The position numbers were made by a program, and so were the translations under genes. 64,000 bases of DNA from positions 50,625,733-50,689,732 of the forward strand of contig NC_068571.1 in assembly GCF_025698545.1 (NCBI RefSeq), in the 5' to 3' direction. The notes under the pieces were generated by a model. That model did no database searches, was not told where the DNA came from, and saw only the letters and a list, made by a program, of their open reading frames with translations. Shown one piece after another: positions 9,451-58,832 of the stretch (position 1 is the stretch's first letter; the number at the start of each line of letters is the position of its first letter). The DNA comes from Gossypium raimondii (Eukaryota; Streptophyta; Magnoliopsida; Malvales; Malvaceae).

Positions 9451-12142
9451 TCATATACATGACCCGAGGGGGAATGCATCATATCCCAATTCCCCCTCCA
9501 TCATCCCCGTCTCGTTATATTGCTCCTGCATCACACAATCCAGCCTTTTTAAAGAATTTATGCTCATAACTATATTTCAAACATACAAAAGTAACTTCAA
9601 CTACAATGATTAAAAAAAATAAACTATATTTTTCTCGTGCCATACCGGTTTGATCATGGGACTTGATATAACGTCCAAGGTCTCAAAGTTGTTTTGACTG
9701 AATTCATTTTGCGGCTTTCTCTGCTCAAAGAGGATGTCTTCATTGGACCTCAGTTTTGTGTTGAAAGCTAATTTCCCAGCCTCAAGGTGCTGAACATAAG
9801 GAGCACCAGCAACCAGGGAGTCCACACCAGCAAACGAACTGTTTTCTCCCCACTGTTGCTTTGCTGCATAATCTATATTGTGAATGACATTATTACTTGG
9901 ACTAATTTGGCACTGCATGTCTCCTCTAGAGTCCTCCAGGCCTGCATTTGCCATGGAAGCAGAAAGATCAATGGGGTTATCATTTAGGTGAGAGCTCCTC
10001 CAAGAAATGCTTTCTTGCAAATTGTTAGTATGCAACTGCTCGTGACTAAAAGCTTCACATGTTGACAACGAATTTGATGGGAAACTGGATAATTGAACCG
10101 TGTTCTGCCAGTTTTCGTGGCATCTACCATTATCAACAAAATTAGAAAAACCATGAACACCCATGTCAAACGATTCCTGATTTAACGATGCCACATCAAG
10201 AGATGATTGGTTTCCAAACGCACCACTACGTTGTGCCTGTTGTGTGTTTGCTTGTAACAATAAAGGGCTGCCTGAGGGTGTAGATAGAGAACTGCTCGAG
10301 CTACCAACAGTCATTCTGGCATCTGGGAAGTTTGTGGCAACACCAAAAACATTTGGATTATTAACAGGATTAAGTTCTCCAAAGTGGTTAGCGGACTTAT
10401 TTTGCAATAGTTGGTTGAGTTCTATCGATGTTGGGATCCCTTGAAACAAAGTTCCATTTTGATTCTGGTTTGCAGGCAACCCAACAGGCTGGATCTTCCC
10501 AAGACCATTGATGGAATTGCTCAAGGTTTGAGGATGTCCCTGTTGAATCACGCCAGAAGAAATCCCACGTAGGTTTAAAGCAGCTGAAGAGTTCAGTCTA
10601 CCAAACATCCCACTCGGTTGATATGATGATAGTGTAGCACTCGAAAGTCTTCCAGATCCAGTCAATGTACGAAAATCTCCAAAGCCATCCAGTGAACCCA
10701 TACGCAAGTAAGAGGGATCTTTACCACCTAATGCAGCAACCATGTTTGCTTGCTGGGTTGCAACACTGCTGAGTCTTTTCAGGTAAAGCCTATATTTCTG
10801 CAAAACAACATAAAACAGCAAGCTTAAAGCGGACACAACAAGGTGAATCATAATGCAAAAGGTCGAGAACAATGAGCAAAAGGGGCTTACCTGTAGATGG
10901 CTTGCTACATTTTCCCTTGTGAGCCCTTCAACATTCATAAGGTCAAGAATTTTCTTTGGAACAGCCTCTGCATTTGAATAAAAAACAAATTAGAAATGCA
11001 ATCAAGGAAGATAACTCTCTCGACAATAAGACACAGTGAACAGCAGAAAACTCACTGTCAAGGCCCAAATGATTGACAGCTGCAACAAACTTCCTATGTA
11101 GCTCAACGGACCAAACAACTCGAGGCTTCTTCTGGGTTGAAGGGTCATCATTCTCATGTTCATTATCTTCACCATCATCTTCTTCATCTTCATTTTGGTC
11201 CTTTCGCTTCTTATTGAATTTTTGGTCCGAACTGCTTGTTGATGTTTGGACAGCTTCTCCGATTCCTCCCGAAGCCTTATCTTGATTCAGAGCATTAACT
11301 CGATCCTTAGAATCAGGTTTCTTTCTCCTGACCACATGCTGCCATATGTTTTTGAGTTCCTCAATGCGAACAGGCTTCAATAAGTAGTCACAAGCACCAT
11401 GGGTAATCCCCTTCATTACAAGCTTGGTATCACTATGAGCTGACAACACTGGAATTCATTGACAGAAAGCATTTTGTTTAATCATTCTGATACAATTCTA
11501 ATTTATTACCACCAATAATGGAAAAAAGGGTTAAAGCTTACTGATTACAGGTAGGTCCATTTCAAGCCCAACAAGCTCAAGAAGCTTAAAGCCATCCATA
11601 TCTGGCATATTAACATCACTGATAACCAAGTCATATCTGTTTCTGTTTTCCCTCAACATTTTGAGGGCTGAAATGGCCTGATTTGTTGTAGTAACTGCAA
11701 AACAAACGCCATTAATGATTTCGCAAAAAGAAGCCTAAAGTTTCAAGTTTCAACAATGCCGACAGTCAAACGTTCTTGCATAGTACAATTACAAAGATCC
11801 AAATTAAATGCACACTTGCAAACCACAACAGACAGATCTTCCCACAATGGAAACAGTATCCAAAAAGTTGACTAATTAACCCGAAATGAAAGACACATCA
11901 AGGCAATTTATCAAACATTTTGAGAACAATGATGAAACTTTAAATCAGACAAAGATTGAATCTTTTGTCAGAAAAAGAAAAAAGGAGGACTGACCTTGAT
12001 ATTGGCATTTAAGAAGCAGAGTACCCAAAACTTTGAGGCAAATAGGATCATCATCCACGGCTAAAACACGCATACCAACTGGAAACCGATCCAAGGCTTC
12101 ATCTTCACGATTGGAACCACCCATTTTCTCCTCCATAGTCAT
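9451..12142 (-). CDS. ARR12-like: Type-B response regulator (ARR10/ARR12-like transcription factor)
   Basis: Six exons in transcript order: 12142-11995, 11694-11542, 11448-11056, 10967-10891, 10797-9646 and 9525-9451. They total 1998 nt, giving 665 residues. The receiver domain (about 24-141) shows the acidic DDD at 30-32, phospho-acceptor Asp76 in [13 protein letters not shown], Ser103 and Lys125 in LLKPVR. An acidic linker ([15 protein letters not shown], 187-201) precedes the GARP/Myb-like DNA-binding domain (about 207-268, [15 protein letters not shown].. to KYRLYLKRL), split over three exons. A long Ser/Gln/Asn-rich tail follows, and a 25-codon last exon ([18 protein letters not shown].. 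to LGSCI) supplies a C-terminal motif typical of the family. The protein would accept phosphate from AHP proteins and activate cytokinin-response genes in the nucleus. The start MTMEE resembles ARR10/ARR12. Assignment to ARR12 itself rather than its clade is uncertain. Confidence 0.94.
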
Positions 12143-38695: not shown

Positions 38696-39924
38696 ATGGC
38701 TGCAAAACTCCTTAGCTTTTTGTTTTTCAGTTTCCATTTTCTTGTTTTTCAGCTTCACTTCTCCGCCGGTCAGGATGTTGTTAGGGCTGCTTATTGGTCG
38801 GCAGGCAGTGAATTTCCCGTTTCCGATATAGACTCCACGCTTTTCACTCACCTTTTCTGCGCATTTGCTGATCTTGATTCTCAAACCAACCAAGTCACGG
38901 TTTCCTCGGCAAACCAGGCCCGATTCTCCACCTTCACTGAGACTGTCCAACTGAAAAATCCTTACATTAAAACACTCCTTTCAATCGGTGGGGGAAGTTC
39001 ATCGGCATCAGATTTCGCTTCCATGGCTAGCCAAGCTAATACCCGGAAATCATTCATCGATTCCTCCATAAATATAGCTAGATCTTACGGCTTCCATGGC
39101 CTTGACCTTGATTGGGAGTACCCATCAACACCTACTGAAATGAACAACTTGGGTTTACTTCTAAACGAATGGAGAGTTGCTTTGGTTAATGAAGCCGCCA
39201 ATACTGGCAACTCAAGATTACTTTTGTCGGCAGCATTTTTCCGCAACTCGGATTATTATACTCTGGATTATCCAATCCAGGCAATACAGAATAGCCTGGA
39301 CTGGATCAACGTAATGGCTTATGATTTTTACGGCCCTGGATGGTCAACTGTAACCGGACCTCCAGCAGCGTTATACAATCCCGGAACTCAAGTTAGTGGT
39401 GATTATGGGATCACTTCATGGATACAATCAGGTATTCCATCGAATAAATTAGTTCTCGGCTTCCCTTTTTACGGCTATGCATGGCAGCTTGTGGATGCAA
39501 ATAACCATGGGTTTTTTGCACCGACTAGTGGACCGGCTATAACGCCAAATGGAGACTTGGGTTACGGTCAGATCAAGGATTTTATTTCGGCCAACAGCGC
39601 CACTGAGGTATACAATGCGACGGTGGTTTCGAATTATTGCTACGCTGGGACGACCTGGATTGGTTTTGATGATACAGAAAGCATTACAGCCAAGGTTTCT
39701 TATTGTAAACAAAAAGGGTTGCTTGGTTACTTCGCATGGCATGTTGGCGCTGATGATGGTTGGACTCTTTCTCGAGCAGGTCAGTGAATGGTTTAATACC
39801 CATATATTCTCAATCTGAATGGTCTAAACCATTCTTTTTAGCCATAGCAATTTGTTTGATTAACTTATAACATTTTAATGGGTTTCTTTTTCATGTGGCA
39901 GCATCGGAAACTTGGGGATCGTAG
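38696..39924 (+). CDS. GH18 class V chitinase, secreted, copy 1
   Basis: Two exons, 38696-39779 and 39902-39924, encode 368 residues. A signal peptide (MAAKLLSFLFFSFHFLVFQL, cleavage probably near the HFSAG segment) is followed by a complete GH18 barrel: [30 protein letters not shown], the catalytic DLDWEYP with proton donor Glu141, and MAYDFYGPGW. It ends in YFAWHVGADDGWTLSRA. All core catalytic residues (D137, D139, E141) are present, so hydrolysis of chitin or chito-oligosaccharides in the apoplast or vacuole is expected. The tiny second exon adds only ASETWGS. A TATA box precedes the gene. The start is supported by exact conservation of the sequence around the ATG (ggaactcaacaatggctgc) in the neighbouring copy. 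Role in defence against fungi or in symbiotic signal turnover is inference from the family. Confidence 0.93.
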
Positions 39925-41195: not shown

Positions 41196-43657
41196 ATGGC
41201 TGCAAAGCTTCTTAGCCTCTTGCTTTTCTGTTCGCACTCTCTGCTTCAGCTTAACTTCTCCGCCGGTCAGAATGTTGTTAGAGCTGCCTATTGGTCTGCA
41301 GACAGTGGATTTCCAGTTCCCGACATAGATTCCACACTTTTCACTCATCTTTTTTGTGCATTTGCTGATCTTGATTCTCAAACCAACCAAGTCACCGTTT
41401 CCTCGGCAAACCAGGCCCGATTCTCCACCTTCACTGAGACTGTCCAACTGAAAAATCCTTCCATTAAAACACTCCTTGCAATCGGTGGGGGGAGTTCATC
41501 GGCGTCAGATTTCGCTTCCATGGCTAGCCAAGCTAATACCCGGAAATCATTCATTGATTCGTCCATAAAGCTAGCTAGATCTAATAGCTTTCATGGCCTT
41601 GACCTTGATTGGGAAAACTTATCAACGCTTCCTCAAAAGACCAACTTGGGTTTACTTCTCCAAGAATGGCGAGCAGCTGTGGATAAAGAATCCACCACTA
41701 CTGGCAACTCAAAATTACTTCTTTCAGCAGCACTACCTTTCCGCAACTCGGATTATCCAATCCAGGCTATACAAAATAGCCTGGACTGGATCAATGTGAT
41801 GGCTTATGATTTTAACGCCCCTGGAAGGTCGACTGTAACCGGACCTCCTGCAGCATTATATAATCCTGGAACTCAATTGAGTGGGGATTATGGGATCAGA
41901 TCATGGACACAATCAGGGTCAGGGATTCCGCCCAATAAATTAGTTCTTGGGCTTCCCTTTTACGGCTATGCCTGGCGGCTTGTGGATGCAAATAATCATG
42001 GGTTTTCTGCACCGGCTAGTGGACCGGCTGTATCGCCGAAGGGAGAACTGGGTTACGGTCAGATCAAGAATTTTTTTTCCGCTAACAGAGGCACGAAAGT
42101 TTACGACGCGGCAGTTGGTTCGAATTATTGTTACGCTGGGACGACATGGATTGGTTATGATGATACGGAAAGCATTAGAGCTAAGGTTTCTTACGTTAAA
42201 CAAAATGGGTTGCTTGGTTACTTCGCATGGCACGTTGGCGCAGACGATGACGGTCGGACTCTCTCGAAAGCAGGTCAGTCAATGATTTCATACCTATACT
42301 TTCTCAATCCCCATACTCTAAATAATTCTTTCTCTAATATTGCGTTCTCTTCGTTTTTGTATTGCAATTTGCCATTACACCCAATATTTTATGTTCATGT
42401 GGTGAAGGTTTTAACCGAAATCGTCACATTTCTCATTTATTTTTTTTTTAAATTTTAATTAATAGTTATGTGTTATCATAAGATTATTTTTCTAATTTGG
42501 TTCTTATGTTTTTTATCTAAATTTATTAAAATAATGATCAGAATAAACTTAGATAAATGACTGTCCAAATACAAAAGAATAATAGTAATAAATTATCCAA
42601 GTTCATATTAGACGTAGTTTCTTAAATAATTATTAAAATGTTATTTATTTTAGAATTTTTAAAATTTTCTAAAATATTTGTTGACATGGAAAAAATTCCT
42701 TCATATTAAACTTACATGATATCTCATATGTCACTATTTTGTTATATTAGTAAAAAAATGACGGTCAAATTTGGTTAACGTTAATGATCAAGAGCTTAAT
42801 TGATTAATTTTTAATTATAAAATTTGAATTGAGTACAAATTTTCATGAGCACTTAATTGATTTTTTTTATCTTTTTGCAAAGGGCATTTTTACCATAAAT
42901 TTTGATTTTCTTTTATAAATTTCATAAATTTTTATAATATTTTATATATTTCTATACGTTTTCTTTTAATTTTGTAAAAGATTTTAGATTTTCAAATACT
43001 TTTAAATAGTCTTTTTTTAATGACATGGCACTCTTTCATAACCTCCTAATGGTGTAAAAAAGATAAAAGTAAAATTTAGTCTTTGAATTTGACAGTTTTT
43101 ATCAATTTAGTCCTTAATTTTTTTTCATTCATATTAATACTAGAACTTGGCAATTTTTTCAATTTGGTTCCTAAAGTTGGATTTCATTAAGGTGTGATGA
43201 TGTGGCACACTATTATTGTGCCATATCATCACTTGAAAATTTTAAAAATTATATAGAATCTAAAAATACAAAAAATTAAAAATATAAATAAAATTTTAAA
43301 ATTTTATAAAAAATCTTAAGTATGTGGCACAATCACAAGGTGCCACATCATCATAGTTTAACAGAATACAAGTTCAAGGACCAAATTAAGAAAAGTTGTC
43401 AAATTTCAAGACTAATACCAAAAAAGTTCGAGGACTCAGGACTAAATATTGCTTTAAAGGGTTAAACCATTTAACGGAACCCAAGTTTGAGGACTAATAT
43501 GAACAAAAAAAAGTTCAAGGACCAATTTTTAAAAAAATTACCAAATTTAAAGACTAAATATTGTTTTATTCCTAAAATTAAGAAATTTTACTACCAATAT
43601 ATCAAATAACTAACTTTTATTTTATTTATGTTTGTTTCAGCAGCAACGGGATCTTGA
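41196..43657 (+). CDS. GH18 class V chitinase, secreted, copy 2 (diverged near the active site)
   Basis: Two exons, 41196-42273 and 43641-43657, encode 364 residues. It is a tandem duplicate of the gene at 38696 and identical over long stretches (for example SSANQARFSTFTETVQLKNP). The signal peptide is MAAKLLSLLLFCSHSLLQL. The catalytic DLDWE is intact with Glu140, but the next residues are NL instead of YP. The conserved MAYDFYGPGW of copy 1 has become MAYDFNAPGR, and the loop after AALPFRNSDYP is shorter. Catalysis is therefore possible, but substrate binding is probably altered. The intron is 1367 bp against 122 bp in copy 1, because a fold-back element and other AT-rich sequence sit in it. 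The last exon contributes only AATGS or ATGS, since the tandem cagcag acceptor allows either. Confidence 0.9.
43062..43585. mobile_element. Fold-back MITE in the intron of chitinase copy 2
   Basis: The left arm (aaatttagtctttgaatttg, then tttagtccttaa) pairs with the reverse complement of the right arm (aatatttagtctttaaattt, then attggtccttgaa). Central arms share gatgatgtggcac. Arms total about 150 bases each. It lies inside the long intron and explains part of its length. No target duplication was established. Confidence 0.6.
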
Positions 43658-44756: not shown

Positions 44757-47160
44757 GAAACTCACTAAGTCTTGCCACTAAGATAGTAACTTGTTGGAAA
44801 ATGTTTATAATACATAGTTTTTGTGTACTCGAAAATTGATAGATTTAGCAATTCAATCTTATATATTAAATTAAAATATTGACGAATTGAAAAGAATCAA
44901 AAGAACTAGAAACGAATTTTTAAAAAATAATTCGTTCATTATTTTTTCCAAAATTTCAATTTATTAAACTAGTTTTTTTGACCCAAAGATTGAGTGATCT
45001 AAGAAAGGATTTTTGAAAGGAAAAAAAGAGATAGATTGTGATCTTAATTCTTACTTGAAGATTTAGAGATAGGAATGTGCTAATATAAGGAGGAGATGTG
45101 ATGATTCATGACAGTTCACCTGAAGGGCGGAGAGCTATACGGATGTTAGTATGGTCGACATAAGGGTTATCAATAAGGATTAAAGAGGGATCAAAAGAAT
45201 TTCAAACGACTGTATTCGTTCCCTTCTCCTACTATTTCTATGCTTTTAAGGAGTTACCTCTGATCAATCAATTCCAAACTCCTTGGTATTAATTAAATTC
45301 ATGAGTACCTTTTAAGATTTAAGTAAAAAAAAGAATTTGGTAATGACAATTAATATATATATATATATATATATATATAATGGATAAATAGATAGAAATA
45401 TAGATATATTATCAAAAAATGTTTGGTGTAATGGTGAAGCAAATTGCATTTCTAATCTTGAAGACAATATTATTGAGAAGAATAATTATGAACCCCAAAC
45501 ATGGACGGATATGTATATATATGTTTTACTGAGCTGGCCCTTAACGAGGCCACCAACTAAAGTTTTATTTTGATATTTTTATACATTTTAATCTTAATTA
45601 TTCACACTTTATTATTTCCATCAATTATATATCTATACATACTTACTATTTCAATGTCACCCAAAACTCAAAGTAAGAAATTAAAGTATAATTAGAGATT
45701 TGAAATTAATAATTTTATGCCTTACACATATACAATCTTACTAAATCTTGACTAATTAATGCATTTTCTTTGTATTTCATTATGTAAGAAATAAAATCTA
45801 AACCAAAATCTTCAAATTTCTGCTATCTAAGTTCTTATGTCATTATTATTTCAACTTTAATTAAATTCAAGATTAATTGGATCTTCCTAAAAAGTAAATA
45901 AGGGTAAATTAGGATGGGTGGTGCAATGTAGTGTGATGCATTTAACTTATTTTTTGTCTCATGTTATAGTATCGTTACAATATCTAATTTCACTATCACT
46001 ATTATTTTTACACTAATAGTAGATAAACACACCACCCATACAAACCCACCCTAAATCTGAAATTAAAAACCCAGGTTACTATTTTAATTGACAAGCTTCT
46101 AGAAGATTATAAATCAGTAGTAGTTGTCCTACACAACCCATTAATTATTTTGAAAATTGAAATGCAATTTGTTTACATTTTTGTCTTGATGCATTGTTTT
46201 TCAATCTGCATCAGCACGTGGAATGGAAAATTTTATGTCTTTAGGAAATTGAGTAGGACATGATATTCGGCTTATTGTTTGCCCCTCCTGAATAGGAAAT
46301 TGTTTGTTTAGGACTCCAAAAGATTTATCAAATTTTAAGTTAATATGTGATCAATTATAATTTGCCCCTCTCAAATTATAAAGATATAAATGGTGAAGCT
46401 GCACTTTAACTCTTATAAAAGTATATAATTTAATCTCGTCCCTCCCTCCAAAAAAATAGCTCCCCCTCTGCACATGAGCTCTTACTTTTTACTAGTGTTG
46501 AAATATTTGAAGTTGCTACAATCTGCTAAGGAAAATGGCCACTTCCTTTACCACTGCGACAAAACAATAACTTGTCTTATTTAAAAGATTGACGATTTAT
46601 TGAACTAAATCTTTGGGTTGTGCTGATATCATGGAATGATTCAAACCCATCAATGAAGATCAACTCATTTGAAAATACATATCCGGATCAAAATTAGAAG
46701 ATTTATTTGCCAATAGTCCATTTTACTTTGGTCATTAATATTATATTGTATTTAGCTATTTTAGCTGTTGTTTAAAAGGGACTGTGATTGTAAAATCTTT
46801 GTATAATTAGTTTTACAAGCTAAGTTCTCAAGGGATACTGTAAAGGGATATAGTCTTTAAAATACAAGAGTGAAGATTATTATTTAGGGTGTGTTAGAAC
46901 TAATATTATCGGGTGTATTTGTTTCAAAAATAGTGAGTTGCTCCGTAAACATAATAAAACTGAACTGCGTATCCCCTCTATTCATTGTGTTTGTTACTGT
47001 TGTTATAAAAGTGCTCACTTCTGCTCATATTTTGTTTCTGGTATATGTAATTATCTCATGTACGCAAAAGTCTAAATATTTGAGTCAACGAAATGAGAAA
47101 AATACTTCAATCAAATCCTCACTTCACGTTAAAAGAAAAAGACAACAAAGACATTGGTAA
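44757..47160 (+). repeat. Segmental duplication, copy A (direct repeat of 61683-64000)
   Basis: Starting with gaaactcactaagtcttgcc, the sequence is nearly identical to 61683 onward for about 2.3-2.4 kb, with scattered substitutions and short indels. Shared landmarks include gacggatatgtat, gattgagtgatctaagaaag and a block ending cacttcacgttaaaagaa near 47140. No gene is recognised inside. A less AT-rich block at about 46470-46700 is shared with 63345-63560 and may be an old gene remnant. The repeat probably extends past the right edge of the window in copy B. Confidence 0.9.
45353..45377 (+). repeat. (AT)n microsatellite
   Basis: About twelve AT units in copy A. The same position in copy B (62319-62337) has about nine to ten, so the locus is length-variable between the duplicates. 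Confidence 0.8.
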
Positions 47161-47449
47161 TTACAATTAAAATGAGCCCACCTTTTGCGGAACATGAAAA
47201 AGAGATCAATCTTTAATAATGTATGGGTTTTTTTGTCAAAATAATTTCATCACGTTTAATACTAAAAATATTCCTTCCCGCCAATAGTTTAATATTGCTG
47301 GAGGCACACTTTTTTTGTAGAGCTCAGGAATTTTGTGTTAAAATATCTGAGGTAAAACTATAAATTTTTACAATTTAAAATGAATATAATTATTAATTTT
47401 AAAAGACCAAAATACAATTTAGATAAATCCTTATCTTTTTAGGTTTGAA

Positions 47450-47635
47450 ATGTTAAAACTAAAAATATGGGGATTAATTATATAATTTAATTTAAAATTT
47501 TGTTTGAAATGATATTTAATGTGTTACGTCAGCTTATCGTTACACTGTTAATGGTAATTAATGACTCAGTGACTAAAATATTACAACACGATAACGTAAG
47601 TAACTATAATGTAACATTTCAAATATAAGTGACTA
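47450..47635 (-). repeat. Single arm of the long-TIR family
   Basis: gtgttacgtcagcttatcgt and actcagtgactaaaatatta match the right arms of the elements at 29641 and 35754. Only one arm is present; it stops where the Athila-like fossil begins. Confidence 0.65.
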
Positions 47636-50600
47636 TAACTCTTTTTCATTATTTATTAGGGATAGGATATTTTTGGTGCTTTCAACGACAGCATTAAATT
47701 TTGGCGCCGTTGCCGGGGATTGGCAACGTACTAATCCTGTTTTTTGTTTCTTATGACCAGATTTGCTCCAGGTACTCTTGTGTTCGGTTTAGAAATTGAG
47801 AAGACTGCTAGAGCCAATCGCAATGAGACAAAGTTACGAAAAAAGTAATCAGCGGTGGTTGGAACTCAAAGTAACCCACCGCCAAAAATCGAAGTCGACG
47901 ACGAAGCTGAGTTTAGGGTTAACGAAAACCCTACTTGAACACTTGAAAGCGAAAAAGTAGAAGTCGACTCACCAGAAGAAGTGCTTAATGCTAGGGTTGA
48001 CGAAAACCCGAATCTAGCACACCAATCAATGGCTCAAACGATCCGGCAACTAGCTGAAGCTCCGACAGAACAACCGCCATTGTGCATCGCATATCCTACT
48101 GTGGATACCGATTTTGAGTTGAAATCAGGTTTAATCCAGTTACTGCCAACTTTTCGTGGGTTGCAAAATGAAAATCCCCACAAGCATCTGAAAGAGTTTC
48201 ATATGGTTTGTCTTAGCATGAAACCTCAGGGGTTTACTGAGGATCAGATTAAATTGTGTGTTTTCCCTTTCTCCCTAGCAAATTCCGCTAAGGAATGGTT
48301 ATTTTATTTACCTCCTGGATTTATTACAACTTGGGCTGATCTATCTCGTTTGTTTCTGAACAGGTTTTTTCCAGCGTCTCAAACAGCTGAACTAAGAAGA
48401 GAGATAGTTGGAATAAGGCAAAAAGAAGTTGAGTCCCTTTACGATTATTGAGAGCGGTTTAAGAAGTTGTGTGCAAGCTGCCCACAACATGGTATAACGG
48501 AGCAATCACTTCTCCAATACTTTTACGTAGGTTTGAAGCCCATTGAGATGAATATGGTAGACGCCGCTAGTGAATGAGCATTGGTCAACATGACTCCCCA
48601 ACAAGCGAGAGACTTGATCTCCACGATGGCTGCAAATTCTCAGCAGTTTCGAGCCAATATTGAACCCCCTAGAAGGGTTCACCAGCTAAGTAATTCAACC
48701 TTAGAGGATAAAGTTGATAGACTTGCTAATATGATGAATTCTCTTATTACAGAAAAAGTGAAGACAGCCCGGTTATGCAGAATATGTGCTACACCTGATG
48801 ATGCAACTGATGCATGTCCCAATTTGTATGATGATACCATGGTCCATCTGGATACTATAAGAAATTTCCCTAGGCCGCCACAAAGGCGATACGACCCCTA
48901 CGGTAATACCTACAACCCAGGGTGGAAGGACCATCTTAACTTAAGTTATGGGGCCAATCTATGAAATAACTAGCCATACCAAAATCAGTTTCCGCAACAA
49001 CCGTAAGGTTTAGGTAATTTTCTTGAAACCATGGTCAATAAGTTAGCAGCTAATGTTCTTGATTTTCAACAGCAAACTTTTAATTTCCAAAAAGAGATGA
49101 AGGATTTCCAACAAAAAACTGAGGCGTCCATCAGAGAGTTGACCACATCGATTGAGAAATTGACCTCTCAAGGGAAGCTACCGTCACAAACAGAACCAAA
49201 CCCTAGACAAAATGCAAATGCAGTAACGTTGTGAAGCAGAAAGGTACTGGAACCGATTCCTGACAGGAATCTTGGCCAAGAAATTGCCCAGAAAAAACCT
49301 GAGAAAGACGAACAGGTCCGACTGAAGCCTCCATTGCCTAAAATTCAACTTCCATTTCCAGAACAATTCAACCAGTGTCGACGAGGTAAAGAGGACAAGG
49401 AAATCCTCGAAACATTTAGGAATATTGAGATCAACATTCCACTGTTGGATGCCATCAAGCAAATACCGCGGTATGCTAAATTTCTTAAAGAGCTTTGCAC
49501 CAACAAGCGAAAATTAACAGGTAATGAAAGGGTGAATGTTGGTGAGAATGTACCCGTAGTGTTACAGCGAAAAATGTCGGCAAAATGCAAGAATAAGGGT
49601 ATGTTTGTAATACCATGCAAAATAGGCCATCTGAAAATTAAGAAGGTTATGTGTGATTTAGGGGCTTCTATAAATGTAATGTCATATTCTATTTATGAAT
49701 TACTTAACGCGGGTTTTTTTGACAAAAATAGGTGTTATCATTCAATTGACGGACATGTCTGTTGTGCATCCAGAAGGAGTTCTTGAGGATGTTCTGGTAA
49801 AACTTAATGAGCTTATTTTCCCTGCCATTAGCCATCCCAGTGAAATCTTAAGTGTAAATCGTATCGACATAATTGACTCTTTAGTGGAAGAGAATTTTGA
49901 GTCAATTTATGGAGTTAATTATGAACTTGATAAATTTGAATTTGTTAATGAGTTATTATCTCCAAATACTAAACTGTTACCTTATGTTATACAGGCACCA
50001 GAGTTGGAGTTAGAACCCGCATGAAATACAAGGAAATTAGACATCCTAGAGTTAGAAGAAATTCGCAATAATGCCTACGAGAATGCTCTCATTTATAAAG
50101 ACTAGACAAAGTTGTTTCACGATAAGAGAATAGCTCAGAAGCATTTTCCGGTAGGACAAAAAGTTTTACTTGATAACTCCGAGTTAAACTTATTCTCAGG
50201 TAAGCTTCGGTCACGATGGCAAGGACCTTTTATTGTTACTGAAGTGTTCAAACATGGAGCGATTGAAATAGAGAGTGAAGAATCTGGAAACGGTTCGTAG
50301 TCAATGGCCAGCGGTTGAAGCCATTTTATGAGAATTTTCAAGCCCACACGGTTGAGAAAATCCATTTGGAACCATCATAGAACCAATAACTGCGTCGAGC
50401 TAACGACGTTAAACAAGAGCTTGTTGGGAGGCAACCCAATTTTTATTATTTATTTATTTATTTTCTTTACTTTATTTATTACTTTATTTTATTTTATTAT
50501 TTATTACTTATTTGGATATTAATAAAATTTTCTTCTTTTGCTTAGATAAAACAGAGCAAAAATGTGAAGAAAATCGTTGAGCAACGCTTAGAGTGCATTG

Positions 50601-51199
50601 AGGCCCGACTTGAAACCTTTGGCCAGCAACTGACTGAGTTTATTGCCATCATATGCGATCGACAGTAACAACACGGGGAGTTTTTCTAAACTTTTCTACC
50701 TATTTATTTCTTTTTGTCCACATTGAGGACAATGTGCTTTCAGTAGGGGGAGGTACTCTTCGTTATTACTGTCATTTTCTACTGTGATTTTAGTTGTTGT
50801 TGCTGTGATTATTTTTGGCTGGTGTTGCTACTTGAGGCTCCATTTGTCCATATTTTTTTAATTGCCTACTGTTTGACCTACAAGTATGATTCTTGTTTTC
50901 TGGGAAAATTACGGATTTTCCATAATTGATGCCATCTCCACTGTTTTATTCTTATTAGGCTAAAAATAATTGTGATTCATAGAGTTAACTTTATCTTGCT
51001 TTTCGTAAAATTAATCAAGTTTAATATAAAATGAACACTTAATATGTTTGCATGCTAAAATATGTTCATTACTATTAAGGTAATTACTGAAACTTATTTT
51101 TGACATTTGATTGTTTTTTTTCTCTAAGTCCTCATAAAAAAAGAGTTATTATTAAAATGTCGTTTAATGTTTCCGTGGTTATGAGTGCAGCTTAAAAAT

Positions 51200-51490
51200 G
51201 TGACTGACTAAGTAACGGGGGTAGGGTGCTTGGGTTGTCATACTATTTCACTTTAAAATATTGTGTGACGTGTTAGGTAAAACTCTGCTAACCGGAATTA
51301 ATTTTTAAGAACATGTTGGGCTGAGTAATCGGGGTGAGGTGCTTGGTTGTCATCTCTTTTCGAGTCAAAAGGTTCGATGTGTTCTTAAGAAAAAATTATA
51401 ATAAATTAGGAGTCTGCTGGGCTGAGTAACCGAGGTGGGGTGCTTGGCTGTCATCTCTCTTTGCGTGTAAAGGTTCAGTATATTCCTAAA
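51200..51490 (+). repeat. Three imperfect ~110-bp tandem units inside the Gypsy fossil
   Basis: Units centred on ctgagtaaccgaggtggggt and gcttggctgtcatctc occur three times, each followed by a spacer ending near gtgttcttaag-like sequence. Such repeats before the 3' LTR are common in Athila-type elements. Confidence 0.7.
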
Positions 51491-51827
51491 GCATAAAAAA
51501 ATATAAATAATAAAAAAAATCAAAATCAAAATAAAAAAATATATAATTTGGGGTCTAAAGGAGGAAACAAATAGGGTGTCTTGGTAGGTTTGGTAATTTA
51601 CCTAAATTTCATTAAATAATTCAAGTTGATTCTAATTTTTTGTGTATTAATTGGAAAACTTTTTCTGTTTTACTTAAAGCAAGCTTAGGGTTCTCTTTAT
51701 TTTTCATATGCATTTTTGACTGATTTTTATAAAACGCTGGAGTGATATTTCTTTTATGCCAGAATCTAACTTTCACAGTAGATAGGAACCATACTTGAGG
51801 GCAAGCATAGGCTAAGTAGGGGGAATT

Positions 51828-53121
51828 TGATAACACTCTAGAATAACGTATTTTTATGTATTAATTATGTATTTATTCTGAATATGATCCTGCTAATTTA
51901 AGCTATTAATGATCTTTTATCTCAAAGGGACTAAATTTGAGGCAAAAGCAAAATTAAGGGCCAAAAGCGTGAATTTAGAGATAAAATGGGCTAATGTGTG
52001 ACACAAGGAAAAGTTGATGCCAAAAGTACAAGCATGGAGGACACAAGGGTTGAAATGTGAAAAGAAGAGATTTTATTCTATCATACTCTATTTTAATTAC
52101 ATTAGGATAATTAATATTAAGATAATTATTAAGGATTATTTAATTTTAGGATTTTATTTATCTTTATTTATCTTCAATTAAATGTATTTACCTTTTGGGA
52201 GCTTAAGTAGGATTAGACTATCTCTCCTAGCACTATAAATAGGGAGTGAAGTGACTCAAAAGACATCCATCTTTTTTTTGTAAACACTCTTTCCCAAAAA
52301 GTTTAGGCTTTTGTTCTTCTCGTATTTTATTTATTTTCTTTTCCACCACAACCATGAGCCACTAAACCCATCTAGCCGAAGGTTGTCGATATTCCCCAAA
52401 AAGGGTTCTTGAGGCTTAGAATCCGTACTTAGTCTCTTCGCCGAGTATTCATCATTTCTCCGCACTACGAGGCTAACGCTTCCGTCCATGTCCCTTAAGA
52501 ATTAAGCTTTTCAACATATGTAAAGGTTGTTGCTTTGTATGTTTTGGGAAGGTTGCACAGTCGGTTCGTTAGCTTACTGCGTCAGAGGTTGGCGTGCCAA
52601 GAGACAAAATGACGTGGGATTCGCCATTGAGCAGCGTTGATCTAGCATAAGACGATTCCATAGAAGCGATTGTTGGCTAGAGTCAGGTTCTAATAAATCA
52701 TAAGTCTAAATCCTTGGAGTTTGTGGTCGTAGGCGTCCTCTTCCACTATAACTGGCTTATTCGGTTTGAAAAGGATTATCTAAAAGCTGAGGATTGAACC
52801 CAAGGCGGAACGAGACAACTGGAGGCTGGAACCTCCCATAAGAATTTCTTTTCTCTCAACTCTATTTTTAATTTCTCGAATTTTCGATTCAAAATTCTTA
52901 ATTCTGTTTTTATTTTATTTTTCTTTTCCAAATCCAAACCTTTAATTCTGTTTTTTTTTCAAAGAACGTAGGTTTTCTTGGGCAAGATTCTGCTTAGAAT
53001 TTCATGGAACAAGACATTGTGTAAATCCAGTCCCTGAGATTTGACCCTACATCTCTTTTACTATTTTTTTTCATTATTTATTAATGATAAAATATTTTTG
53101 GTGCTTTCAACAACTGCATCA
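51828..53121 (+). repeat. 3' LTR of the Athila-like fossil
   Basis: Starts TGATAACACTC directly after the polypurine tract and ends ..caactgcatCA. Its last ~50 bases (ttttggtgctttcaac..) match the stub just upstream of the primer-binding site at 47.65-47.70 kb. It contains a TATA-like ctataaatagggag near 52233. Length is about 1.29 kb. Confidence 0.8.
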
Positions 53122-53320
53122 GTTATTAGTCTAATCCTTTGTAATTACTACCCGTGATAATAAACTTAGAAAATTGTTATTTGAGCAAATCAAAGTCAAA
53201 GTTATGTCTTGGTGGGGATAGCATTACATTTGTCTGTTTTCTTTTATGTAGTCATTTCCAACCAAATTCTACGTTTAATTATCAACTCTCCAAGAAATCA
53301 TCACCCTGAAAGTTTCCTCC

Positions 53321-56300
53321 ATGGTTATGGTACCCAAGTTTATCATACTTCTCTATATTTTTCTCTCTTTAGGACTCAATCCATCACGAGCACAAACCTG
53401 GATTCAAGCTGGTTACTGGTATTCCGGCACTGAATTCCCCATTGCCGATATAAATTCATCTCTTTTCACTCACCTTATTTGCGCTTTCGCTAACATCAAT
53501 GCCTCATCCTATCAACTCTCCGTTTCTTCTTCTGATGACCAATACTTCTCTACTTTCACAAACACGGTCAAACAAAAAAACCCATCAGTCACCACGCTTT
53601 TATCCATTGGAGGAGGAAGTGCAAACCGTTCAGTCATAGTTTCAATGGTAAGCAATTCGTCCCATAGGAAATCCTTCATTGATTCCTCAATAAAAACAGC
53701 TAGGCTTTACGGCTTCCAAGGCCTAGACTTTAGCTGGGTTTCAGCCAACACAAGCTCCGATATGAGCAATATGGCTGCTCTCTTCCAAGAATGGCGAGCT
53801 GCAATAGATTCAGAGACGGGTCAGTCTAAGTTGATATTAACGGCTGCAGTTCCATATTCTCAATATTCACAGTCGTCTACTTATCCAATAGACTCATTGA
53901 GGACGAACTTGAACTGGTTACACGTTAATGCCTTCGATTTTTACATGCCAACATGGGAAAACCTCACGAGAGCTCATGCAGCACTATATGACCCAACCAG
54001 TAATTTCAATGCAGATTTCGGTATAGAATCATGGATTACTGGAGGACTACCAGCGAATAAGTTGGTTTTGGGTTTGCCTTTGTATGGCTATGCGTGGACA
54101 CTAGTCAACCCCAGGGATAACACGATTGGCGCACCAGCGTCAGGGCCGGCTATATCAAAAACTGGGGAGATGACATACAAGGAGATAAGGAATTATATTC
54201 ATAGTCATGGCGCCAATTCAGTGTATAATGCTACTTTTGTAGTGAATTACTGCACCGTAGGAACCACCTGGATTGGTTTCGATGATGTTGAGGTTGTCAA
54301 AGTCAAAGTTTCCTTTGCCAAGGAAAGGAAGCTGCTGGGCTACTTTGTGTGGCAAGTTCCCAATGACGACAATTGGTTGCTTTCGCAAACTGCAGGTATG
54401 CTTACAAGAGTTTTCGTGATACTTTTATCAAAATACAATGAAGAAGAAGCTCACCAAGCCGGCTTGAGAAGGACCAAAAAAAAAAAAGGAATTAGTTAAC
54501 TAAGAAAAACTATAATCTAAAGAGGCCATAGAAATAAACATCATGAAATTAATGAAAAAAGAATCTTTCTGGCAAGCTTTCATTATTTATTTATTTTTAA
54601 ATCTGTATCAGTTGATGTGGATGGTGAGAATGGTACAGAGAAAAAAGGGCGGTCGTCGTTGATTATTATATTGGTTCCAGTCACTGGGGTCTTGATTTTG
54701 ATCGGGGCATTGACGTACTACATTCGAAGGACAAAGAATAAGAAGAAAGGTATTTATTTCGAGCTATCTCACTTAACTGCTCATTCACTATTCCCTCTTC
54801 ATTATTTAGCAGTAAATCTCTAAACTTCGATCCTGTTGAATTATGTAAATGGAATTCCGAGTACAAAGCAGCTTATTCATGAATGTTTTTTGGTTGGTTA
54901 ACAGATACCGAGTACAAAGCTAAAAATTCCAAGTCCAAAGCAAATCTTATGACAGAAGCTGGAGATTTTAACAACAATGCTCCTAATCTGATGGTTTATA
55001 GATTCTCTGATATTGAGGAGGCCACTAATAGGTTTTCATTTGAAAATAAGCTTGGGGAAGGTGGATATGGTCCTGTTTACAAGGTAAAGCTAAGCTATTC
55101 TAGCTATTTGATGTAAAATTTTGGAAATTACATTGCACTTTTCCAAGGAACTGTAAATAAATTCCCATTTGCCAGGGTGTTTTATCAGATGGAAGGGAAA
55201 TAGCAGTAAAGAAACTTTCGAAAACATCTACACAAGGATTTGAGGAGTTTAAAAATGAGGTCATGCTAACAGCAAAACTGCAGCATGTAAACCTCGTTAG
55301 AGTTTTGGGATTCTGCATTGAGAGAGAAGAACATATGCTGGTCTATGAGTTTATGCCAAATAAGAGTTTGGATTACTACCTTTATGGTAATTTATAGTTA
55401 ATCTATAAGCAATTGAATTACTGGTTGAACAACAACTGGTTAAATCTTATCTTAATTTTCATTTATGATGAATGTTTCATTGTCTACAGATCCAATAAAA
55501 CGGTACATGCTGGATTGGGAAAAACGTGTTGAAATTATTGAAGGAGTTACTCAAGGGCTTCTATATCTTCAAGAATACTCGAGATTGAAAATTATTCATA
55601 GAGATTTAAAAGCTAGCAACATTTTACTAGATGAAGAAATGAAGCCCAAGATATCAGATTTCGGAATGGCTAGAATTTTCTCTAAAGATGAAGTTGAAGC
55701 CAACACACACCGCATTGTCGGCACATAGTAAGTTAATTCTGAGAATACGAAAATTGAGTGTGGACATTGACACTTTGTTTTGCTTTTGCAGTGGTTATAT
55801 TCCTCCTGAATATGTTAAAAAGGGTTTATATTCCATCAAATCAGATGTATATAGTTTCGGGGTCCTACTTCTTCAGATCATAAGTGGACGAAAGACCGCA
55901 TGTTTATATGGATTACATGAAAATTTAAGTCTTCTTGAATTCGTAAGTCTCAACATGATCTCTATACCCTTTTTCAATCATTAAGTTGTGAAGATAATTG
56001 AATATAATGTTTGAATAAAACTCAGGCATATGGATTATGGACACAAGAGAAAGGCATGGAATTCATGGATCCCACACTGGATGACACAAATTCATCATGC
56101 ACGTTATTGAAATGCATGCAAATAGCTTTGTTATGTGTGCAGGAAAATGCCAATGACAGGCCTACCATGCTGGAAGTGTCGTCGATGCTTAGAAATGAAA
56201 CCACACCGATGGCCAACCCGAAAAGACCTGCTTTCTCAGAAAGAACCAATGAAAATGATGAACTAAAGAGATCGAATTTGAAACCTGAAATATGTTCAAT

Positions 56301-56337
56301 CGATGACTCGCCCATATCAGAAGTGGTTGGTCGATGA
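53321..56337 (+). CDS. CHRK1: GH18-ectodomain receptor-like kinase (chitinase-related, CHRK1-type)
   Basis: Seven exons, 53321-54395, 54612-54749, 54905-55083, 55176-55386, 55490-55727, 55792-55942 and 56026-56337, total 2304 nt and 767 residues. A signal peptide (to about residue 24, ..NPSRAQ) precedes a GH18 domain (about 26-358) homologous to the two chitinases nearby. The catalytic DLDWE has become DFSWV: Ser138 replaces Asp and Val140 replaces the essential Glu, so it should not cleave chitin. After a short linker comes one transmembrane segment (about 375-396, [20 protein letters not shown]) and a Ser/Thr kinase: [10 protein letters not shown] (455-464), Lys476 in AVKK, HRD (571-573), DFG (591-593) and GYIPPEY. 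All kinase residues needed for activity are present. The architecture matches tobacco CHRK1, a plasma-membrane receptor kinase with an inactive chitinase-like ectodomain. Binding of chitin fragments or another glycan is inference. A second in-frame ATG at 53327 is equally possible. Confidence 0.93.
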
Positions 56338-58832
56338 CTTTGGTGGCTAAGAAAATTTGTTATCATCAAATACTATTTCAACTTTATCTCTTTTGGTTAT
56401 TAAACTATTCATGATAATTTAAATCCCTTAAATACGAATAATTTATATCAGTTTTTTTTTACAAAGAATTATAACTATATATTTAAGAGATGTTACTTGA
56501 ATAAGTTTATCTCTTACTTTAATAGTTATGTCTATAATTTATGAAATATTAGTTGAATAATTATGTCTATTTTAAATATGTATTTATTCAAAAATAAAAA
56601 AACCACCTATAGAAAGTAATGTCTTTATATATTAGAATTCTTATAAATAGCAATGGGATTTCATTTGGAAAATATATCAAAAAAAATTTAAAAGTTTTTT
56701 TCTATTTGTCCTCAATATTGTTCTATACTTTGCGCAGTGCTTAGTGAATTATTTTCGTCAGTGTAAAAGGGAAATAATCATCGGGCTTATTGTATCCTGA
56801 TCAAAGTTCATTTGGTTGAAACTCGTTTGCACACTAAGTATAGGTGGGGGGATAAAACCTTAAAAATAGTAGTTTTATACATGCCTTGAAGCCTTGTCTT
56901 ATTGCTTTGTTTTTCTATTCGAGTTGTTGTTCGTATTTCATTTGTAAGTTTGAGGTTTTCCTCACCAAACTTCCACACTAACAAAAAAAAAATAGAGTTT
57001 TGATTGTCGGCTTTCGTTGAAAATTTTGTGTTATGAAAGTTGCCAAATTGCAATTTGCTATGAAAAATGTTTTGTGGAATTATACGAATTGCGAAAATCA
57101 TTGGATTGGTTGTTTTTATACCATTTTAGAAATGTTTTATGGATTTTACTTACCTTACTCGAATTTGTTTTTAAATTGCTTTTAAATAAATTTTAATATT
57201 AGTAAAGTTAGAATTTAGAGATCACTATTAAGCCGCTTAGTATTAGGGTTTTTAATTTCGTGTGCAAATTATAAATAACTCATAAATTCGTGATCAATTA
57301 CCAACCAATCTCTACAAACCTTTATTTTTGAAAAGACATTACTTCATATAATCTTGATAGGTTTGATTCCATTTACTCGTTGGCTATTCAAATGAGACTT
57401 GTTGAATAATTTTAATGTTATTTTTGCTTTTATAAGCATATTTAAAAATTATATTTTAATGTATAAAATTGAATAACTAATCCAGCAAATTACTCTCGAC
57501 ATCGCCTACGCGCAAACACCTTCCCTAACGCATCCGGTCAACTTAGGACAATCGTTAGTCAGTGCTTGACCATTGGCTGTCACTTTATTCATTGAATCTT
57601 ATTTTGACTTGATTCGTTCTCTTAAGTCAATTCGATCCAAGGGCAAAGTCAAAAATTATTTAAGGGGTCCAAAATTAAATTTTAATTTTTATGATAGCAA
57701 AGATGCAATTTTACTATTTTAATAGTTTATATTTTTATAACTTTTAAAGGATTAAATCAAAATTTTATAATTTTTAAGGAACCAAAGTGTAATTTTATTT
57801 TTACTAATTTAAAATTTTAAAAGGCCTAAATAGAAAAATTTTCATTTTAAGAGGTCGGCCTAACTACACCCTGGTGATCCTCTTTAACTCATGTAATTAC
57901 CAAACTTTTTCTAATAGCAATACTAAACTAATGCAATCAAACGAAAATTAATAGAGTCCACGAATTATCTCACTTCATTTGTTTTATGATAGTTTCCTTC
58001 TTATTGTTATATCTGGAAATAGTTATAAGCTTTACTAATAAACCATTAAATTTAATGGAAATTTTCAACATTTAATATTTTAAATTTATAATATTAAATA
58101 TATTTAATATTTTATTTAATATAAAAATTTCAACAAAAAGGTATTGAATGAGATAATTAGGTAGATAGCTATTTATCACATTAATTATCATTTAAAAATG
58201 AGATATTTAAATTACCATAATAAGATTAAAATTAAAATTAAACAATCTTTTAAAATTAATATTTACTTTTATGAATTCAATACTGTATTTACTAATTTAC
58301 CAAGCAATTTTCTAATATAAATTCAACACTTATAAAATTGACTTGTTGAAAAATATTGTCTATTTTTAAATTTTAAAGAAATAGCATTTGGTGCATTGTT
58401 AATTTCTTTTATTCTCTTTAAAAATAGCTATATGCAGAGGTGGGTCCTCATTATGGCTTCGGAGGGTCTTGGCTCCTCAAAATTTTTAAAATTTTAGTTA
58501 TACTTTTAAATTTTTTGAAAATTTTAAATAGATCCCAAAAGGTTTTAAAATTATTATTAAACCTTTGAAACTTTAAAAAAATTAATTAGATTATGCAATT
58601 TCTTTTTAAAATTTTCATAAAATATCTAATGTCGCATGTGTTACATATAATTTTACGTATTTAATATTTAATATTATTTAAATATTATCTTTTTATTTGT
58701 AGTAATTAACGTAAAATTATATTTTTTGAATAAATGCTTTTTATGTGTTACATATGATTTTACATATGATTTATATGGCATGTATTTCTAAACACTTTAC
58801 ACTTCACACATATTCCGAGAACCGGCTAAATT
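56338..58832. other. Intergenic, repeat relics
   Basis: The 3' region of the receptor kinase, then AT-rich sequence. 57640-57870 and 58440-58620 are relics of AT-rich repeats (aaattttaaaaggcc and ttggctcctcaaaattt). No further gene is recognised. The last ~150 bases may include internal sequence of the adjoining Gypsy fragment. Confidence 0.4.

Follow-up and report, generated by a model that had tools for sequence, protein, structure and literature searches.

What does a receptor kinase perceive through a chitinase domain that has lost its catalytic residues, and does that domain derive from the active-looking chitinases encoded beside it? Both questions are raised by a gene of Gossypium raimondii, analysed here in a window of 64,000 nucleotides of contig NC_068571.1 (hereafter C7). 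The gene lies at window positions 53321–56337 on the forward strand and consists of seven exons and six introns, all GT-AG, giving a product of 767 aa (Table 1). The spliced protein was matched in Pfam by both Glyco_hydro_18 (PF00704; residues 31–349, E 1.2e-64) and a kinase domain (residues 449–718, E 2.1e-47). Hydropathy placed a signal-like hydrophobic stretch at residues 1–21 and a single membrane stretch at residues 370–397, in exon 2, with a peak Kyte-Doolittle 19-mean of 2.74, a layout in which the Ser/Thr kinase would be on the cytoplasmic side. The best solved relatives of the ectodomain were the plant class V chitinases AtChiC (3aqu, 50% aa identity) and NtChiV (3alf, 47% aa identity), and an identity of about 50% to 3aqu already points to a class V GH18 fold. 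If intron 1 were retained, the exon 1 frame would stop after 34 codons (54396–54499), leaving a soluble ectodomain.

Table 1. Features of the receptor gene, its twin and the adjacent chitinases; positions are window coordinates unless stated otherwise.
Feature	Position	Strand	Remarks
w1, secreted class V GH18	38696..39787 (approx.)	+	DLDWEYP retained, active-looking by sequence; start = in-frame Met before signal-like stretch, chosen by eye
w2, tandem copy of w1	41196..42458 (approx.)	+	DLDWE retained; start chosen by eye
Receptor exon 1	53321..54395	+	signal peptide and entire GH18 ectodomain, precursor residues 1–358
Ruined catalytic motif DFSWV at DxDxE position	53726..53740	+	mature residues 112–116, precursor residues 136–140
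Divergent patch in exon 1	53797..53996	+	15 of 70 twin differences in 200 bases; precursor residues 159–226
Receptor exon 2	54612..54749	+	juxtamembrane part, transmembrane helix
Receptor exon 3	54905..55083	+	kinase start, glycine loop
Receptor exon 4	55176..55386	+	kinase: IAVK lysine, alphaC glutamate
Receptor exon 5	55490..55727	+	kinase: HRD, DFG
Receptor exon 6	55792..55942	+	kinase: PPEY
Receptor exon 7	56026..56337	+	kinase end, C-terminal tail
Twin receptor	C7:50690771-50693796 (window coordinates about 65039-68064)		beyond right end of window; motif DFSWA

The original prediction, a single protein joining a signal peptide, a GH18 domain, a transmembrane helix and a kinase, was thus borne out by Pfam, hydropathy and the splice model alike. 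It had also described the kinase as intact and the chitinase motif as destroyed, and both descriptions held: all seven kinase motifs searched for were present, and sequence and alignment agree that DFSWV stands in place of DxDxE, with the first Asp retained, the middle Asp changed to Ser and the Glu to Val. The receptor therefore lacks the DxDxE with its catalytic Glu by which an active class V chitinase is recognized. Two tandem GH18 chitinases had been announced about 10 kb away, at least one with a full active site; these are w1, which keeps DLDWEYP, and w2, which ends 10.9 kb from the receptor gene. They share 85% DNA identity over 1195 aligned columns, with a dN/dS of 0.25; in w2 an Asn replaces the Tyr after DLDWE and the frame continues beyond the position of the w1 stop. 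Elsewhere in the window, an MFS_MOT1 molybdate transporter gene (347–1855) has a 93% identical copy at C7:50612635.

Across the genome (751 Mb, 281 contigs), 30 GH18 matches were found, 11 of them full-length and class V-like, and a count of 11 was likewise obtained with the ectodomain as query. The 19 weaker matches (none above 81.7 bits or reaching beyond position 237 of the 317 in the profile, two containing stops) were left out of the phylogenetic analysis. Kinase exons lie downstream of the GH18 exon in 5 of the 11 class V genes, namely the window gene, a twin at C7:50690771, two genes on C13 and one on C5. With exon phases imposed from the window gene, all five receptors gave open seven-exon models of 767–776 aa with GT-AG introns and a transmembrane segment in exon 2, which speaks against the GH18 and kinase parts being two separate genes. 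The remaining six are soluble: w1, w2, a gene 3.3 kb to the right of the twin (the fifth class V gene on C7), two on C13 and one on C5. Ten of the 11 class V genes fall within three related segments, the eleventh being about 0.37 Mb off, on C13. Loss of the catalytic residues extends to the whole receptor family, the motifs reading DFSWV, DFSWA, DLFGV, DLFWV and DLCGF, with both the Glu and the middle Asp absent from all five; DxDWE is retained in all six soluble genes. One of the five paralogues, C13:54156353, carries HLD instead of HRD in the catalytic loop of the kinase. A short frame at C13:54167281–54167559, with about 42–44 residues matching the receptor ectodomain exon at 48–50%, lies between the C13 receptors and may be one more GH18 fragment.

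The origin of the ectodomain was examined in a Maximum Likelihood tree of 15 GH18 domains, 11 from the genome and 4 from solved plant proteins. The five receptor ectodomains formed a single clade (100/99). AtChiC, NtChiV and RobpsCRA were joined by w1 and w2 (83/83, not starred), and CrChiA by the remaining four soluble genes (100/99). Being a clade of their own, the receptors did not branch with RobpsCRA, the position that would mark a CRA lectin. A clade uniting the two C7 receptors (window gene and twin) with w1 and w2 was rejected (AU p = 1.6e-6). The identities agree: w1 and w2 share 67% and 62% aa identity with AtChiC but only 50% and 49% with the receptor ectodomain. The claim that the receptor is a sister-derived relative of the adjacent chitinases is thus unsupported, and the ectodomain did not arise from the present neighbours. 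Of the branching expected under that claim, what survives is a deeper union of all receptors with w1 and w2 against the rest, which was not rejected (p = 0.08).

The kinase parts of the five receptors likewise formed one branch (90/99, not starred), placed among SD1 and DUF26 kinases. Eight non-GH18 kinase loci, taken from near the top of the match lists rather than as a census, were inspected by eye for their ectodomains: five had S-domain/G-lectin frames, two had DUF26 and one was left unassigned. The nearest kinases therefore carry G-lectin/PAN or DUF26 ectodomains, as expected for an SD1/DUF26-type (DLSV) kinase. Taken together, the tree and the dS values given below suggest an old lineage of receptors, fused to a kinase of the SD1/DUF26 type, and no recent offshoot of the neighbours.

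Whether the former active site could still hold a sugar was considered residue by residue. An AlphaFold2 model of the ectodomain, built with just three window sequences, was set aside; because it was so poor (mean pLDDT 39), the statements on the cleft are drawn from the sequence alignment alone. The C7 receptor pair retains Tyr8, Phe32, the Gly-Gly-Gly at 73–75, Trp235 and Trp320. In the C5 receptor and both C13 receptors, Gly73 is replaced by Trp, Tyr231 by His and the strand-8 Trp320 by Phe; these three of the five thus lack the strand-8 Trp and some or all of the GGG floor. The receptors accordingly fall into two predicted cleft types, the C7 pair largely retaining the sugar-binding floor and the C5/C13 group having an altered one. 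In MtCHIT5a, a class V chitinase, the D148A and W364A variants were reported to be non-functional (PMC4967823), and we read W364 as the strand-8 Trp. The first residue of loop B is of interest in the same respect, as S257P at this site sufficed for Nod-factor cleavage by MtCHIT5b (PMC4967823). All five receptors share a Pro here with w1 and w2, whereas the remaining soluble genes, four in number, have Val, AtChiC and CrChiA have Ala, NtChiV has Lys and RobpsCRA has Gly, the equivalence of the site being taken from the Ala and Lys that PMC4967823 names for AtChiC and NtChiV, since MtCHIT5b is outside our alignment. The Pro at the start of loop B in the receptors makes lipo-chitooligosaccharides a possible ligand class.

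Selective constraint on the cleft was compared in 12 pairs, which were selected from all possible pairs and have sequences in common, with strand-end segments placed by motif and the cleft face defined after a first look at the data. With six-residue segments, the face was significantly conserved in six of seven enzyme pairs (odds ratios 0.09–0.44), w1/w2 being the exception (odds ratio 0.49), and in none of five receptor pairs (odds ratios 0.65–1.84). At 10, 12 and 14 residues per segment, the enzyme signal shrank to one of the seven pairs. These values give only a hint that the receptor cleft may no longer be constrained like that of an enzyme.

These features make it likely that the gene encodes a receptor kinase of the CHRK1 type, in which a GH18 domain would bind a sugar in its old cleft, leave it uncleaved and signal through the kinase. 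Specifically, the GH18 barrel would face the apoplast and would be incapable of hydrolysis, as DxDxE has lost both its proton-donor Glu and its middle Asp; a sugar ligand would be held in the former substrate cleft and the signal handed on to the kinase. A ligand of the GlcNAc-oligomer type would be the first guess for the C7 pair, because the cleft floor (strand-1 Tyr, strand-3 Gly-Gly-Gly, strand-8 Trp) is largely retained, and would be less likely for the C5 and C13 receptors. The motif by itself is a poor predictor of activity, given that RobpsCRA retains DxDWE yet is reported to be devoid of chitinase activity.

A less probable but still credible alternative is that the ectodomain sees another ligand, such as N-glycans, a glycan of the host wall or of development, or some protein; the barrel would then be a mere scaffold. 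It draws on RobpsCRA, a relative from class V that shares 46% identity with the ectodomain and is reported to bind high-mannose glycans (PMC6272470), on the altered GGG floor and strand-8 Trp of the C5 and C13 receptors, whose clefts have evidently changed, and on the ties of tobacco CHRK1 to development and cytokinin balance (PMC10573068, PMC4707873). However, the set of cleft residues kept in the C7 pair (Tyr8, Phe32, GGG 73–75, Trp235 and Trp320) goes beyond what a scaffold needs.

The layout of the locus also suggested a functional unit, in which the neighbouring chitinases release fragments that the receptor senses, and the history of the region bears on this. The C7 region is colinear, in inverted orientation, with C5:3.925–3.960 Mb: to the left of the receptors, three anchor spots outside the GH18 family keep their order, and after them come a receptor and then a soluble gene. 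The link to C13 is one-sided, consisting of an anchor block between C5:3.925–3.929 and C13:54.199–54.203 Mb, and its tie to C7 is one 64-residue match beyond the soluble gene. A 459-aa frame on the minus strand of the window (9613–10989), which has no Pfam match, has homologues at C5:3.958, C5:3.975 and C13:53.769 Mb that fit the related segments, and further ones on C8, C3 and C10.

The dS values of eight neighbouring non-GH18 C7/C5 frame pairs, which include overlapping frames on both strands and hence are not independent genes, ranged between 0.45 and 1.10, and that of the soluble C7/C5 GH18 pair was 0.68–0.71; 18 C5/C13 anchor frame pairs (dS 0.10–1.65) were left out of the dating. Receptors compared across segments gave 1.62–2.06 over the whole coding sequence, which is near saturation; values for single exons went as low as 1.06 and so reached into the upper end of the range seen in the neighbours. 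The receptors as simple whole-segment duplicates were rejected, their whole-coding-sequence dS exceeding that of the eight C7/C5 neighbours. Since the dS of the soluble pair matches the neighbours while that of the receptors is higher, the mixed receptor-and-chitinase array is probably older than the duplication. The C13 soluble gene does not correspond by descent to the C7/C5 one, given its 51% identity to the C7 gene and a dS that is saturated against C7 and 2.46 against C5, and no counterpart of w1/w2 was found in the C5 segment fetched. The simplest reading of this pattern would be an ancestral array holding several lineages each of receptors and of soluble genes ahead of the segment duplication, followed by uneven loss.

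For the unit, it can be said that in all three segments a soluble DxDWE gene lies downstream of a receptor, at a distance of 1.3–3.3 kb (3.3 kb from the twin on C7, 1.3 kb on C5 and 3.1 kb on C13), and that the mixed array probably predates the duplication. However, inherited tandem duplication alone could leave such neighbours, ten of the 11 class V genes being in the three segments; on C13, the soluble gene and its receptor are on different strands, and this soluble gene is another one by descent; w1 and w2 are missing from the C5 segment; and single receptor exons, with dS down to 1.06, come within the range of the neighbours. A sensing unit of receptor and chitinases is therefore unlikely. 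Equally doubtful is the broader proposal of an old module, in which dead chitinase-kinases and working chitinases stayed side by side through genome duplication in three surviving segments, with two receptor cleft types (chitin-binding floor kept or altered). The cluster acquires a longer history from these data, and position does not address joint function.

Relaxed constraint on the ectodomain, with the receptor on its way to becoming a pseudogene, was weighed against the divergence between the window gene and its twin, which lies 11.7 kb to the right with an ectodomain 93% identical. The twin belongs to a tandem duplication that also matches window positions 44757–47245 and 57493–58707; between the twin-unit matches, the window holds about 6 kb (47246–53201) as against 0.8 kb in the twin unit, including a retrotransposon gag fragment (PF03732) at 47939–48448. 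The two gene bodies show 70 differences over 3017 bases, and the density in the exon 1 patch of Table 1, which surrounds barrel strands 5 and 6 (placed by motif), was reached in 26 of 5000 random placements. Amino acid differences number 22 of 334 in the GH18 part and 5 of 296 in the kinase (p = 0.0026), with dN/dS values of 0.50 and 0.14. The introns differ at 10 of 713 positions (1.4%) and the 3′ flank at 136 of 2201 (6.2%; Fisher p = 1.8e-8). In addition, the twin has lost the strand-6 Asp (D182N), a residue common to all 14 other sequences of the alignment; sugar binding there may therefore be degrading.

Decay is nevertheless quite improbable, despite the high GH18 dN/dS of the twin pair and the loss of D182. 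Neither copy has an interrupted exon or a damaged splice site, and dN/dS between receptors across segments is 0.14–0.26 for the GH18 part, as expected of a retained domain (0.07–0.13 for the kinase). The patchy divergence points instead to gene conversion, by reason of which the pairwise dN/dS of the twins is no clean measure. Positive selection on the cleft of the twin was also considered but is not claimed here. Differences affect 13 of 96 cleft-face residues and 9 of 238 elsewhere (p = 0.0025; face dN/dS 0.62), but the face was drawn after two clusters had been seen, the excess reaches significance with segments of 10, 12 and 14 residues but falls short of it with those of 6 and 8, and it was not seen at any segment setting in the independent pair of C13 receptors. 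Gene conversion that homogenized most of the gene and spared the strand 5/6 part would fit better.

A CHRK1-type receptor with a non-hydrolysing, sugar-binding GH18 domain, the reading preferred here, has its closest known kind in tobacco CHRK1 itself, as the original prediction had noted: both have a class V GH18 domain, a transmembrane helix and a Ser/Thr kinase, and CHRK1 is also reported to lack the catalytic Glu and chitinase activity, with a plasma membrane location in a fusion assay (PMC10573068). CHRK1 was induced by a fungal pathogen and TMV, a chitinase-like kinase was reportedly not seen in Arabidopsis (PMC10573068), and CHRK1, NtPUB4 and cytokinin have been linked (PMC4707873). The cotton gene also lacks the middle Asp, in which it may differ from CHRK1, and belongs to a family of five receptors with a tandem twin. 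Soybean GmGH18-20, a CRA-kinase, likened here by description, combines class V GH18 and kinase as the sole one of its group (PMC11855358, PMC6272470), but is reported as a single gene in a CRA family described as free of tandem duplication (PMC6272470). More widely, 91 plant GH18-kinase sequences (PMC5485988) and kinase domains combined with CRA domains (PMC5485960) have been reported.

Other class V proteins share the fold family or arrangement but not the receptor. AtChiC and NtChiV have an intact DxDWE and solved chains free of a kinase. RobpsCRA, reported as a class V GH18 protein turned lectin (PMC6272470) and, like the MtCRA proteins, said to have no chitinase activity (PMC6272470, PMC4967823), groups, unlike the receptors, with AtChiC, NtChiV, w1 and w2. 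The Nod-factor and chitin hydrolases MtNFH1 and MtCHIT5b are class V members in tandem (PMC4967823), and Chit5 and Nfh1 occur in clusters with paralogues (PMC6192697), but these are enzymes, and the available portions of the two papers mention no receptor among the paralogues. The literature consulted, in the portions available, names no ligand for a GH18-type receptor kinase, and we found no paper on cotton GH18 receptors in the open literature.

The architecture was thus already known. New here are the gene itself, the inactivation seen in every one of the five family members found, the two predicted cleft types and the probably old mixed array. The absence of the catalytic residues from all five genomic members argues for treating the receptors as binders, and two apparent cleft types together with a near-identical twin pair in one genome provide natural material for finding the ligand.
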